Source: Thioalkalivibrio sp. ALJT (GTDB lineage: Bacteria > Pseudomonadota > Gammaproteobacteria > Ectothiorhodospirales > Ectothiorhodospiraceae). Taken from it: a DNA stretch of 64,000 nucleotides. This document shows, in pieces, positions 40,566-48,665 of the stretch (its first letter is position 1; each line of letters starts with the position of its first letter). A program made the translations under genes and the position numbers. The notes beneath the pieces are model-generated. The model saw only the letters and a list, made by a program, of their open reading frames with translations. It was not told where the DNA came from and searched no databases. Location: positions 124,001 to 188,000 of the forward strand of contig NZ_KB907124.1 in NCBI RefSeq assembly GCF_000381825.1. The letters are read 5' to 3'.

Positions 40566-40762
40566 CGATGGGGAAGCACTGACCAATGGATACACTTGGC
40601 TGGGTCCCCCGGGTGTTCCGATACCCGGCGCCTCGCCCGGCGGGTAGTGATTCCAGGCGCCCGTTCCGGATGGATTCGGGCCGCAACGCAGGATCGGTGA
40701 ACCCGGGGTACGAATGCCGAAGGGGCTTCGGCCTCCCGTTGTGATCCACGACGGGCGTGCGC

Positions 40763-40870
40763 ACGGCGTTGCGGCCCCCTTGTGCAGAATGACTGCACGG
40801 CGATCACCGCGCCTCGTTCGCACGCAAGGGCGACGAGACAGCGAGCGTGTACAGGGATCAGAGTGTCCCC
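40763..40870. repeat. Dispersed repeat B, copy 1 (about 108 bp)
   Basis: Shares with 59704-59810 the blocks ACGGCGTT.CGGC, GCAGAATGACTGCACGG (identical over 17 bases), TCACC.CGC, CGCACGCAA, GCGAC and ATCAG.GT.TCCC in the same order and nearly the same spacing. Intergenic, 58 bases before galU. Likely a short mobile or structural repeat of this genome. Confidence 0.75.
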
Positions 40871-44519: not shown

Positions 44520-44987
44520 ATGAAGCGATCCGCACGTCTGTTCACTGCCGCCTCCGTCGCGGCGACCCTCACGCTGGGTTTGGGTGCCACCAGCTCGGTC
44601 CAGGCCTTCGACGAGCACGAAGCCACTATCGACTACCGTCAGGGTGTGATGCGTGCCATTGGCGGCAACATGGGTTCGGTGGCGGCCGTTGTGATCGACG
44701 GGGCCGATTATGCCGGAAACCTGAAGATGCACACCCAGCAGCTGGTCGACCTGACCCATGACATCCCGTCCCTGTTTCCGGAGGGCAGTGACTTCCCCGA
44801 CACCGATGCCCGCGAGGCGATCTGGGACAACTGGGATCGTTATGTCGAGCTTTCCAGCGACAGTCGTGATGCGGCCAGGGCGTTGCATGCCGCGGTCGAG
44901 GCCGGGGACGAGTCCGAGTACATGATCCGGTTCCGCAACCTGGGGCAGTCCTGCCAGGCCTGCCACGATGACTTCCGCCGCGACTGA
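44520..44987 (+). CDS. Cytochrome c' / c-556 family protein
   Basis: 155 residues. ATG preceded by GGGAG. Signal peptide to about residue 28 (ending SVQAFD), then a four-helix-bundle cytochrome c' (IDYRQGVMRAIGGNMGSVAA) with the single heme motif CQACH near the C-terminus. These periplasmic proteins bind NO or transfer electrons and are frequent in sulfur and photosynthetic bacteria. The gene overlaps the following diheme cytochrome by 20 bases, so they are co-expressed. Confidence 0.92.
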   Translation: MKRSARLFTAASVAATLTLGLGATSSVQAFDEHEATIDYRQGVMRAIGGNMGSVAAVVIDGADYAGNLKMHTQQLVDLTHDIPSLFPEGSDFPDTDAREAIWDNWDRYVELSSDSRDAARALHAAVEAGDESEYMIRFRNLGQSCQACHDDFRRD

Positions 44988-45924
44988 ACCCGTGGCGGGG
45001 TCTCTTGTACCCGAGAGGCGGGCAGCCTGGTTGCCCGCCCTCTGTTTCCTGAGCCTTGGCGCGTTCACGTTCACCCCGGCTCAGGCCGAGATCGCGATTG
45101 GCGAGATCGATCCCGCAGCCAGTGAGGACGACCGGATCGCCTACGGTGAATACGTCTTGCGCGCCGCAGGTTGTGTCACCTGCCACACGGCCGAGGACGG
45201 CGAATTCCTGGCCGGAGGGCGACCGATCGAAAGCCCCTTCGGCGCGTTCTACGGGCCCAACATCACCCCCGACCCGGAATACGGCATCGGCACATGGTCA
45301 GAGGCCGACTTCAAACGTGCGCTGCAGGAAGGGCGCAGCCCGGATGGCCGGCACTACTATCCGGCATTCCCGTTCACTTCGTACACCAGGATGCGCGACG
45401 AGGACATCGAGGCGTTGTGGGCGTTTCTGCAATCCAATGTCGATCCCGTAGCCGAGGCGAATCGACCACACGAGCTCGACTGGTTCGCGCGTTTCCGTCC
45501 GGCCCTGATTGGGTGGAAATGGCTGCATTTCGAGCCCGGTCGCTTCGAATTTGACCCGAATCAGTCGGAACAATGGAACCGTGGTGCCTATCTGACCCAT
45601 GCCCTGGGCCATTGCATGGAATGCCACAGCCCGAGAACCCGCACCGGCGGCCTGGAACTGGAGCGGCTTGGTGCCGGTACACGACTGCCGGATGGCGACA
45701 TCGCTCCCAACATCACCCCGGACCGCGAGACCGGCATCGGCCGCTGGGGCGAGCGTCATATCGCGCGCTATCTGGAGATCGGAATTACTCGGGATGGCGA
45801 TTTCGCCGGTGGCAGCATGGCCGACGTGATCGATCACGGCACCTCGCACTTGACCCCCGAGGACCGCCAGGCCATCGCCAGCTACCTGCGCGCGCAGGAT
45901 CCGATCGGATACGAACCGGATTAA
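44968..45924 (+). CDS. Diheme cytochrome c (class I, tandem domains)
   Basis: 318 residues. Hydrophobic signal region at about 18-40 (ending TPAQAEI). Two cytochrome c domains with heme sites CVTCH (near residue 69) and CMECH (near 215); Met ligands are probably in the segments after each site. Both domains share the NITPD(P/R)E.GIG.W motif found in membrane-associated cytochrome c subunits of dehydrogenases and cytochrome-linked oxidoreductases. No catalytic subunit is adjacent, so the partner is unknown; the cytochrome c' before it is the obvious candidate. Confidence 0.9.
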   Translation: MTSAATEPVAGSLVPERRAAWLPALCFLSLGAFTFTPAQAEIAIGEIDPAASEDDRIAYGEYVLRAAGCVTCHTAEDGEFLAGGRPIESPFGAFYGPNITPDPEYGIGTWSEADFKRALQEGRSPDGRHYYPAFPFTSYTRMRDEDIEALWAFLQSNVDPVAEANRPHELDWFARFRPALIGWKWLHFEPGRFEFDPNQSEQWNRGAYLTHALGHCMECHSPRTRTGGLELERLGAGTRLPDGDIAPNITPDRETGIGRWGERHIARYLEIGITRDGDFAGGSMADVIDHGTSHLTPEDRQAIASYLRAQDPIGYEPD

Positions 45925-46083
45925 GAATGCCCCACCAACGCTGGCCATGCATGCAGGAGCTTCCCAGCAGCCAATTCTCACGGGATTCGTGGGCCGAACA
46001 GATCGCGAGCCCGGAAACCGCACAGCGGTTATCCGCGATCTCCACGGATTGGGGTACCTGTACGCTGGGGTGGATCAGAGTGT

Positions 46084-46123
46084 GGCGATCTCGGCTTTGC
46101 GCGGCGCTACGGCCGGGATCGCC
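46084..46123. repeat. Strong REP-like hairpin after the cytochrome genes
   Basis: GGCGATCTCGGC and GCCGGGATCGCC pair over 12 bp (one T/G wobble) around a 16-base loop. It lies 160 bases after the diheme cytochrome stop with no U-tract, so it looks like a REP element or mRNA-stabilising hairpin. The 662-base gap 45925-46586 holds this, the MITE-like element and no credible gene. Confidence 0.5.
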
Positions 46124-46176
46124 GTCGATGACGGCGCACGTCCCGTCCCCGTTCCGCCAAAGGACGTTCCAGGGCG

Positions 46177-46340
46177 CTAGTGGGTCATGCGGGAAATTCG
46201 GTGACGATGGAGCACAGCCAGAAGTGCCGGAGCAAGACAAGCAAGTGCTGGAATAGCCACCCTATTTCAAACTTGCGGAACGCAGCGCCGGCACTTCTGG
46301 CGAAGCGATCGGTTACCGAACTTTCCGCGTGGCCCACTAG
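46177..46340. mobile_element. MITE-like palindromic element with CTAG ends
   Basis: 164 bp. The outer 29 bases on each side are inverted repeats matching at 24 positions (CTAGTGGGTCATGCGG... against CTAGTGGGCCACGCGG...). Further inside, GCCAGAAGTGCCGG (14 bases) is perfectly mirrored at 46287-46300, and GCAAGT with AATAG near the centre are mirrored too, so the whole element folds on itself. CTAG at both ends fits the TA target duplication of IS630/Tc1-type transposases, which prefer CTAG. It has no coding capacity and would have been moved in trans. Confidence 0.7.
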
Positions 46341-46586
46341 GCATGCGTCGCGCCGTTTGTAGACGGGAGTATTCCGCCAGGCGCGAGCGGACGCAGAGTG
46401 CCCGGGCGCGAACGCTTCAGGCCAGGATCGCACGAACTCGGGTTCGTCCTATCCTGCCTCCGTGTGACGGCCGACCGAGCATGCCTGCGCCTCAATGGCA
46501 GCGACAAATCCCGGTGCGTGTGGTCACGGGATCGTTCTGCGGTGTACGCTTGCGATCCCTTATTGCGTTTGTCGGGAGTCGCATAC

Positions 46587-48665
46587 ATGCGTCTGGGATT
46601 CAGCGCGGTCGTCCAGCTGTTGTTCGTCGCCATGATGATCATCACCGTTACGCTTGTTGCGGCCACCGGCTACAGCCTGGCGCGCTCAGGCGTCGTCGAT
46701 GCCGGCACCCGGGTGATCGACGGGGCGATGGAGAGGACCCGTGACCGCTTCGTCGAGCGTTACACCGAGACCGGCGATCGTCTCGCGCTCCTGGCCTCGG
46801 GGCTGAAGGGCCTGGATGCGCTGGAACAACGTGACTCCGTGTTCCGCAGTCTCTGGGAGCTGGCGCAACAGTCCGAACTGCACCAGTCAAGCTTCATGGC
46901 TGGCCCGGATGACCTCTTGCTGGAGGCACGCAGCCTCCCCAATCCTGCGACCCGTTTCGTGCCCCCCAACAACGGGGACGCGCTGGAGGAGTGGATCTAT
47001 CGGGACGACGACTTCAGCGTCATGACTCGCCTGACCAAACCACGGACGGCATCCCAACAGGATGCCAAGGCGTTTGACAAGGGCGCCGCGCCCGAGGACA
47101 CCCGCTTCAGCGAGGTGCATCCGCTCAGTCTGACCGGGGCACCCGGCATCACGGTCTCCCGGCCCGTTCAGGATGCGGAGGGGGCGGTGAACGGGGTCGT
47201 TGGCATCGAGATTCCACTCGCCCGGCTGGAGGCACTATTGCGTGCCGGCAAGCTTGGCGAGGAATCCATGCTGATGATCATCTCGGATGACAACAAGGTT
47301 GTGGCGCACCACCTCGGGCCCAGGCCGGGCCGGGACGCACCACCCCCCGGTGAATTACTCGAGGTTGCGGACCTGCGCCAGCAATGGATCGCAGACGCCT
47401 GGATGCAGTTGCGCGCGAAGGCGAAGGCGCAGGGCGATCCCGAAGTCACACTGCTCGATCTGGAACCGGGTAACTACTTTGTGCAGAAGAAGCGACTCAC
47501 CGAGCACCTCGATCATGACTGGCATCTGTTCTTGATGGTGCCGGATCATGCGGTGCTGGCCGGCGTGAACCGCGGCCTTCATACCTCGGTGACCCTGGCC
47601 ACGATCATGATGATCGTGGCCGCCTATGCAATCTTTTTGACCGCCAGCAAGCTTACGCGACCACTGCGCCAGATGGTCGATAACGCCCGACTGCTCGAGC
47701 AGTTGCGCTTCGGTGAACTCAGACCTGTCCAGGGCGAGTTCAGCGAGTTCAATGCCCTCGACCGCTCCCTGCGCCAGATGGCGTCCAGCCTGATGGCCTT
47801 CAATCGGTACGTCCCGACTGCCCTGCTGCGACGTCTGCTTTCGGAGAAACACGAGGCCACGCTCGGGGCCGAATGCCGGTCACTGGTTCTCATGAACACC
47901 GGGATCAACGAGTTCAACACGACGGCTGCGGAGATGGAGACCCAGGAGGAGGCAGAGTACCTGACGCGTTATCAGCGCGAGATCTTCGAGGCCGTGCATC
48001 GCAACGGCGGTGCCATCGACAAGTTCATCGATGACCGGATCATCGTGTTCTGGGGGGCTCCGGATGCGGCCGAAAACGATACCTATCACGCCTGCACGGC
48101 GGCCCTCGAATGCCAGGCCGCGACCCACCAGCTCAGTCAGGCACTGCGCTGGGAAAACCATCCGGCGATTACGCTGCGCGTGGGCCTGCACCGCGATGTC
48201 TGCATGGTCGGGAATTTCGGCTCCGAAGACCGCATGTTCTACTCGGTCGTTGGCGGCGCGGTATCGGTCAACAACTGGCTGGGCAACCTGAATCGGCGCT
48301 ACGGCACGACCATACTGGCCAGCGAGGCCATCCGCAGTGAAACCACCGGCGACTTCGTATGGCGCTGGATCGATCGGGTCGAAGTCTTCGACGGATGGAA
48401 CCCCTCCGACGGGGAGGCCCACTCGGACAGGGGCGAGCCCTTCGATATCTACGAACTACGCGGGCATGCCGCCGACCCGGGACTCGCCCAACAACGCGAC
48501 TATGTCGCGCGCTACGAGGCCGCGCTCGCCCTGCGGGTCAACGAGAAGGACCTCGAACGGGCGCTGGAACGTTTCTACGCACTGCATGAGCAATTCCCGG
48601 GCGATGACGCCGTGGCCTGGCAGGTCAAGGTCATTCGCGCAATGCTTGAGGACGACAAGGTATGA
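46587..48665 (+). CDS. Membrane sensor with degenerate class III cyclase domain
   Basis: 692 residues from the ATG at 46587, preceded by GGGAG. Membrane helix at 4-28, a Cache-like periplasmic domain of about 300 residues, second helix at about 332-355, HAMP-like segment (about 355-405), cyclase-like domain (about 415-615) and a helical tail. The cyclase fold is clear (GGAIDKFIDD, GNFGSEDRMFYS), but key positions are changed: the first metal Asp is Gly439 (TGINEF for ADIRGF), the transition-state Asn is Ser560 and the Arg is Trp564 (GGAVSVNNWL for GDAVNLAARL); Lys479 and Asp483 remain. It is predicted to be catalytically inactive or altered. Its stop overlaps the next gene. Confidence 0.85.
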   Translation: MRLGFSAVVQLLFVAMMIITVTLVAATGYSLARSGVVDAGTRVIDGAMERTRDRFVERYTETGDRLALLASGLKGLDALEQRDSVFRSLWELAQQSELHQSSFMAGPDDLLLEARSLPNPATRFVPPNNGDALEEWIYRDDDFSVMTRLTKPRTASQQDAKAFDKGAAPEDTRFSEVHPLSLTGAPGITVSRPVQDAEGAVNGVVGIEIPLARLEALLRAGKLGEESMLMIISDDNKVVAHHLGPRPGRDAPPPGELLEVADLRQQWIADAWMQLRAKAKAQGDPEVTLLDLEPGNYFVQKKRLTEHLDHDWHLFLMVPDHAVLAGVNRGLHTSVTLATIMMIVAAYAIFLTASKLTRPLRQMVDNARLLEQLRFGELRPVQGEFSEFNALDRSLRQMASSLMAFNRYVPTALLRRLLSEKHEATLGAECRSLVLMNTGINEFNTTAAEMETQEEAEYLTRYQREIFEAVHRNGGAIDKFIDDRIIVFWGAPDAAENDTYHACTAALECQAATHQLSQALRWENHPAITLRVGLHRDVCMVGNFGSEDRMFYSVVGGAVSVNNWLGNLNRRYGTTILASEAIRSETTGDFVWRWIDRVEVFDGWNPSDGEAHSDRGEPFDIYELRGHAADPGLAQQRDYVARYEAALALRVNEKDLERALERFYALHEQFPGDDAVAWQVKVIRAMLEDDKV

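Follow-up and report, generated by a model that had tools for sequence, protein, structure and literature searches.

A 164-bp Thioalkalivibrio MITE with CTAG ends, the one-hairpin form of elements that share a conserved, strand-polar interior across Proteobacteria

What is the quasi-palindrome that lies between a cytochrome c gene and the next open reading frame of Thioalkalivibrio sp. ALJT, what moves it, and does its folded interior amount to more than the filling between two transposon ends? The window, by which we mean the whole stretch of 64,000 nucleotides that was analysed, carries this 164-bp element at positions 46177..46340 of the + strand; sequence, fold and further copies identify it as one copy of a Thioalkalivibrio 164-bp family (T164). 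An earlier note on this DNA, made from the letters alone, had described a self-complementary MITE with CTAG at both ends, and its coordinates and anatomy proved right. CTAG stands at 46177..46180 on the left (the side of the target/TA duplication, as read from the sequence and from the empty sites of two other copies) and at 46337..46340 on the right. The terminal inverted repeats, recognised by their match to each other and by comparison with IS ends, occupy 46177..46205 (+ strand, an IS630-like end) and 46312..46340 (- strand) and agree at 24 of 29 positions; the inner stem, whose 5' arm GCCAGAAGTGCCGG (46217..46230, + strand) faces the 3' arm CCGGCACTTCTGGC (46288..46301, + strand), pairs without a mismatch along its 14 bp. 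Where the terminal repeats disagree, the + strand has G-U at four of the five positions and A-C at the remaining one. The strong transcript fold that had been claimed holds as well: the predicted energy is -100.9 kcal/mol, as against -50.9 +/- 3.6 for 200 dinucleotide shuffles (z -13.75), none of which reached as low a value. MITEs are defined in the available text of PMC3733652 as multi-copy elements of 70-300 bp without coding capacity and with terminal inverted repeats of 15-30 bp; the window element has 164 bp, 29-base repeats and seven copies in its own genome, and is too short for an ORF of 55 aa (the ORF list at hand held only ORFs of at least 80 aa).

The further copies that a MITE should have were readily found, in its own genome and in relatives. 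Seven places in the own genome (G000, 2.66 Mb, 21 contigs) carry the element, six with 164-166 bp and one with 143 bp. A first search of relatives gave a match in 15 of 40 genomes, which comprise the own genome, 13 of the 24 further genomes of the genus and, from another family, G039; a scan of genome contigs for the terminal repeat returned 103 stretches, mostly from Thioalkalivibrio, together with Microbulbifer and the MAGs Ww536 (Chromatiaceae) and Ww208 (Competibacteraceae). Among 70 distinct copies with paired ends from several genera, counted without L026-L031 (duplicates from the own genome) and without copies within 20 bases of a contig end, 48 measure exactly 164 bp and ten 268-269 bp. 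Copies are 84-92% identical among six of the own genome, 95-99% among seven of M. taiwanensis and 99.3-100% among six of MAG Ww536, and a related family in the single-contig genome G154 comprises 22 complete pairs of ends, each ~267 bp apart, the compared ones being ~99-100% identical. The close likeness of copies in Ww536, M. taiwanensis and G154 marks recent movement in some genomes. Two derivatives of 74 bp in one genome (L034:2955-3028 and L039:2937-3010) have lost the interior by the same internal deletion, agree at 67 of 74 bases and stand at different loci; because these two copies lacking the unit have unrelated flanks, movement seems to have done without the hairpin unit described below on at least one occasion. 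In the plasmids searched there was no copy of the window element, nor any convincing match to its terminal repeat in the plasmids and phages, and the viral contigs searched gave 0 exact pattern matches. Related two-unit queries gave one match among the plasmids, on Azotobacter chroococcum pAcX50f (L330:2978-3186, in a stretch without a listed gene), and the third such query gave none.

The target is CTAG. Both ends of the 70 paired-end copies show it in 45 cases, one end in 21 and neither in four. Empty sites, which the earlier note had expected in close strains, were obtained in part: a single CTAG is present in relatives at the sites of two other copies, whereas for the window copy no match in another genome spans the insertion site among the matches listed (10 candidates per genome were scored). 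At the site of L002, the alignment reads CTAG at the junction in seven of nine relatives, TTAG in the eighth and TCAG in the ninth; at that of L007, the CTAG contains the stop codon of the upstream gene in the one relative; the site of L006 shows no clean CTAG in five relatives. The target duplication proper to a MITE is thus seen as the CTAG at the empty sites of two other copies, and insertion at TA with a preference for CTAG, the habit of IS630/Tc1-mariner elements, is seen in this family as well.

The main new result lies in the interior, which the earlier note had missed: it is conserved, and it is common to elements with other ends. The unit (46208..46309, + strand; 69.6 bits and E 5.4e-13 with its covariance model, R1) consists of stem 1, an internal loop CAAGGCG/CAACGC and stem 2, and begins its loop ~57 nt inside the element end; the 164-bp class contains one such unit and the ~270-bp class two, inverted. 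In the window copy the loop is partly decayed, though still at offset 57: its 5' side reads AAGACA (46234..46239, + strand; consensus AAGGCG) and its 3' side GAACGC (46278..46283, + strand; consensus CAACGC). By its possession of a CAAGGCG/CAACGC unit ~57 nt from a CTAG/TA end, the window element belongs to the two-motif hairpin superfamily, as we define it here. Among families that had been collected by their ends, AAGGCG occurs at offset 57 in 37 of 45 T164 copies, in all eight from Microbulbifer and in one of two from G243 (58 in the other). Most of the 268-269-bp elements have it there at both ends (6/6 ends in G039, 4/4 in a like family of Ww536, 4/4 in G187, 2/2 in G393 and 1/2 in G297). 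In Ww536 and Ww208 the motif is exact at one end (6/12 and 1/6 ends), the opposite end having AAGGCA or an altered version. The second motif, CAACGC or CAACAC, in most cases lies 43-44 nt after AAGGCG. AAGGCG recurs in a third Thioalkalivibrio repeat of 318-354 bp whose ends are different (CTAGGGAGACGC); of its 32 ends, 20 have the motif at 57 and seven at 72-73. This repeat (L260-L276, for example L265:537-882) is palindromic, ends in CTAGGGAGACGCTGATTGAATCGCACGTCC, carries units and occurs in many Thioalkalivibrio copies. The window holds a second R1 match on its - strand (40741-40841, 42.9 bits, E 3.6e-7), within a degraded relative at 40600-40870 that looks by eye like the third repeat, but has no recognisable ends.

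The stems of the unit covary. For an alignment of 24 units, RNAalifold gave 22 pairs, 21 of which are changed on both sides. The covariation score is 0.800, as compared with 0.227 +/- 0.022 for shuffled and at most 0.25 for slid partners; since the alignment also yielded the structure, the comparison with slid partners is tilted in favour of that structure. The loop varies hardly at all, and invariant columns are confined to the two motifs; both statements are inflated by the choice of units, which were taken, with few exceptions, for starting with AAGGCG, so that the invariance of the motif is partly one of selection. The 24 units remained from 32 after three units of the third family with a long loop and five near-duplicates had been left out, and one was lengthened by five bases read from its locus. 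At gathering score, Rfam gave only sub-threshold matches for the window stretch and 15 related loci (MIR8788 with 29.3 bits, cut-off 124; M23 with 27.7 bits, cut-off 41.2), and in the literature searched, as far as its text was available, we recognised no description of a CAAGGCG/CAACGC unit.

Used as a query, R1 detects the unit in 134 of the 369 genomes sampled from the class, spread over 105 of 271 genera, and in 96 of 398 genomes of a phylum sample, 56 of them, by a count of the matches listed, outside the class; the E-values of these genome scans are rough. In 24 two-unit elements from 21 genomes found in this way (267-274 bp), terminal repeats occur at the predicted place in 23, with a mean of 26.3 of 30 positions identical as against ~6-7 in shifted registers, and the motif sits at 57-59 in 38 of 48 ends. 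At the predicted end place, YTAR was read in 21 of 48 ends and TA at +1 in 22 of 48. The terminal repeats themselves differ from family to family. This set was cleared by hand of the training-genome loci L281, L283, L287, L296 and L297 and of duplicates; L303, a different element of a training genome, was kept, and seven single-unit rows were not counted.

The unit has a preferred strand. Among 65 representatives (less than 80% identity, drawn from 140 matches), 95 G-U pairs are found against 11 A-C mismatches; G-U exceeds A-C in 49 units, the reverse holds in one, and 15 are ties. R1 was trained on units that already leaned towards G-U, which may inflate the figure of 95 to 11. In two-unit elements, each half read on its own motif strand, the ratio of G-U to A-C is 49:4 for left and 44:8 for right units. 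Forty Thioalkalivibrio copies depart from Watson-Crick pairs by 61 G-U, 20 A-C and 34 other changes, and eight Microbulbifer copies alone by four, six and two, respectively; both sets were aligned and oriented independently of the model, but consist of kin copies, in which shared changes are counted repeatedly. The unit thus appears to act as a folded single strand, RNA or DNA, of fixed polarity. An alternative would dispense with any such function: the element would be a MITE of the usual IS630-derived sort, and template-switch (quasi-palindrome) correction at replication would preserve the palindrome of its interior. Such correction readily affects long palindromes, the 74-bp derivative without the unit stands at two loci, and copies show no bias in their orientation to genes, all of which fits. 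Correction does not, however, predict that each of two inverted units has, on its own motif strand, more G-U than A-C, and against it stand also the loop hexamer, which keeps its offset in families chosen by their ends despite differing neighbouring stems, and the ends of other families, which fall where the unit predicts them. We regard a functionless interior as unlikely, though worth keeping in mind. That the interior is a separate, selected and strand-polar structure is supported by fixed geometry in end-chosen families, by covariation and by polarity.

As to the mobiliser, the ends point to an IS630-type transposase. The title of a 1991 paper by Tenzen and Ohtsubo, listed among the references of PMC2170065, states that IS630 prefers TA within CTAG, and a title among those of PMC6471742 that IS870 requires CTAG. 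We found a DDE_3 match in four of 14 genomes, 12 of which are carriers of the element (three of these with a match), and in one of ten further carriers, there below cut-off; most of the carriers searched thus gave none. Where the ends of the DDE_3 IS could be read, they start with CTAGTG, and the sequence that follows CTAG is similar to the terminal repeats in several MITE families. Four IS ends, one seen per DDE_3 IS, were compared with 13 families, i.e. in 52 pairs. The IS630 end in MAG Ww208 agrees with the family of the window element at 14 of 20 positions beyond CTAG, which two of 20,000 shuffles equalled, this being one of the 52 uncorrected pairs; it agrees with family L292 at 16 of 20 (0 of 20,000 shuffles), and another DDE_3 IS end with family L285 at 13 of 20 (p 5e-5), all three picked as best of the 52 uncorrected comparisons. 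Of the IS630-type ends postulated in the earlier note, the resemblance to IS630 (DDE_3) ends therefore stands, whereas no IS with identical ends was found in the material searched. There is good support for a MITE with IS630-type ends; IS630 as its mobiliser we infer from the sequence of those ends.

The full IS630-family element with the same ends, which the earlier note had envisaged, did not turn up in any of the loci and genomes searched. No partner of IS length was paired with such ends in the terminal-repeat loci, three other carriers, seven genomes (the single-contig G010 and G012 among them) and additional stretches. The related family in G154 has no partner of IS length either: all 22 forward ends pair at ~267 bp, and two reverse ends are single. 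Twelve single terminal ends without a known body were inspected and look like truncated copies; beside them lie what we take, by eye, to be ordinary genes. Because many carriers are drafts or MAGs, the autonomous partner may be lost or unassembled.

The IS630 of the own genome was considered as partner and rejected, since its end CTAGTGCCCCTTAAC is related, not the same. This IS occurs at five contig ends (L170, L174, L176, L178 and L180), where it terminates at CTAG, except for CATTAG in one case, and in places abuts the end of the third repeat. At L179, a 273-bp two-unit element (1100-1372) and a DDE_3 IS end (1369) share one CTAG, as if one element had inserted at the end of the other; the second end of this IS was looked for and not found. 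The search for units among collected loci took in 86 loci. Among 13 DDE_3 loci, several of them cut by contig ends, the unit was met at three: at L179 in the neighbouring 273-bp element, beside L170 as part of the third repeat, and at L169, where it stands ~150 bases after the DDE_3 match. L158 and L169:943-1115, from MAG Ww208, represent yet another family, to which this single R1 match (45.7 bits) belongs.

The strand-specific fold in each half might also be read as the mark of a REP/RAYT-like element that a Y1 HUH transposase moves in the form of single-stranded DNA, in which case the polarity would be that of the hairpin bound by the enzyme; REPs with GTAG tags do exist in Thioalkalivibrio (available text of PMC3733652). 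REPs are described there as palindromes of 20-40 bp with a GTAG or CGTC tag at one end, while the element has 164 bp, long terminal inverted repeats and CTAG at both ends as well as at empty sites, and its ends resemble those of IS630. The element does not belong to the REP class on these grounds, and we consider movement of the REP/RAYT kind highly improbable. The movement of the element is best explained by an IS630-type transposase acting in trans, because the ends resemble those of IS630-family (DDE_3) IS. The joint explanation that we favour, and hold to be quite probable, is a CTAG-inserting MITE served in trans by an IS630-type transposase, being the one-hairpin form of a broad superfamily with a strand-polar unit.

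Does the element act on its neighbours? The cytochrome c gene upstream (44968-45924) ends 252 bases before it, and the ORF downstream starts at 46587, 246 bases past it, with a dCache_1 match of 34.6 bits that remains below the Pfam cut-off of 45. An insertion acting in cis, as promoter, terminator or RNase III/E site for the downstream gene or for the upstream cytochrome c gene, would suit a strongly folding predicted transcript between two + strand genes, and ERIC and NEMIS are known to act on transcripts (available text of PMC2229807). Among 39 copies (those within 600 bases of a contig end left aside), 19 have a neighbouring ORF whose stop is the TAG within the element's CTAG, ten of these ORFs having been translated; the ORF caller was crude, and the count may be raised by genes that were cut by the insertion, because one frame in three would end there. 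The promoter that the earlier note had thought the element might supply found no support, as a sigma-70 scan of 45900-46700 gave 0 sites, and no terminator was found in the same stretch. Moreover, one-unit copies show no bias with respect to gene direction (both flanks sense in 11, both antisense in 10, n=39), and the window copy, whose loop motif is decayed, lies 252 bases from the upstream stop. Read-through cis-regulation as the selected role was rejected for want of an orientation bias, and a cis-regulatory insertion at this locus strikes us as decidedly unlikely.

To return to the mobile element with a selected interior, the following mechanism may be proposed. The non-autonomous element inserts into CTAG; most likely, an IS630/Tc1-mariner-type transposase acting in trans would read the terminal repeats of 25-29 bp and insert the element at the TA of that target. 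The unit would be maintained as a folded single strand of fixed polarity; in our preferred reading, a host or transposition protein would recognise its loop in read-through RNA, or in single-stranded DNA during movement. Any role of the hairpin unit is speculative. We further put forward, tentatively and as possible rather than probable, that the superfamily is Proteobacteria-wide and defined by its strand-polar folded module, the ends being exchanged or remodelled to suit IS630-type transposases, and that recognition of the module as RNA or single-stranded DNA raises transposition in trans or host tolerance, for example through a protected 3' end after a stop codon. Bacterial MITEs usually are treated as IS debris, each tied to one parent. 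One structured interior in more than a third of the sampled genera of the class (105/271) points instead to an independent, selected non-autonomous lineage, because the shared interior is widespread while the ends, where read, differ between families. The covariance model, the constant geometry and a conserved loop open to mutation make the purpose of the folded part of a MITE testable.

Several known systems invite comparison. REP/BIME elements with RAYT are palindromic repeats also present in Thioalkalivibrio, and differ in being short, in their GTAG or CGTC tag at one end and in their tie to IS200/IS605-type transposases (available text of PMC3733652). The CIR elements of Caulobacter and Brucella resemble the two-unit form in having two arms joined by a linker, but their conserved GANTC at the terminal loop and their unpaired 5' and 3' ends set them apart, as far as the description in the available text of PMC2229807 allows such a judgement. 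IS630, IS870 and other CTAG-targeting members of the IS630 family share the target (available parts of PMC2170065 and PMC6471742), and IS630-family IS have the ends starting with CTAGTG that were seen here; unlike the MITE, they carry a transposase. Closer in kind are Correia/NEMIS, ERIC (RU-1) and YPAL (RU-2), MITE-like repeats of ~100-200 bp whose transcripts form long stem-loops, with TA at the termini of the first two; a two-unit form of ~270 bp goes unmentioned in the available text of PMC2229807, and Correia/NEMIS is likened to the window element by description. ERIC was rejected as a relative, two copies scoring 8.9 and 9.9 bits against the unit model (E 1 and 0.61, filters off). RUP of Streptococcus pneumoniae (107 bp), for which IS630-Spn1 is the proposed mover, is likewise small and non-coding, has TA in its target and ends like those of an IS630-family IS, the likeness again being one of description; the available text of PMC2229807 does not mention an internal-loop unit at a fixed distance for it, and the exact IS partner is missing for the window element. 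Judged by analogy of behaviour, and within what that text describes, RUP, NEMIS and ERIC are the nearest known kinds.
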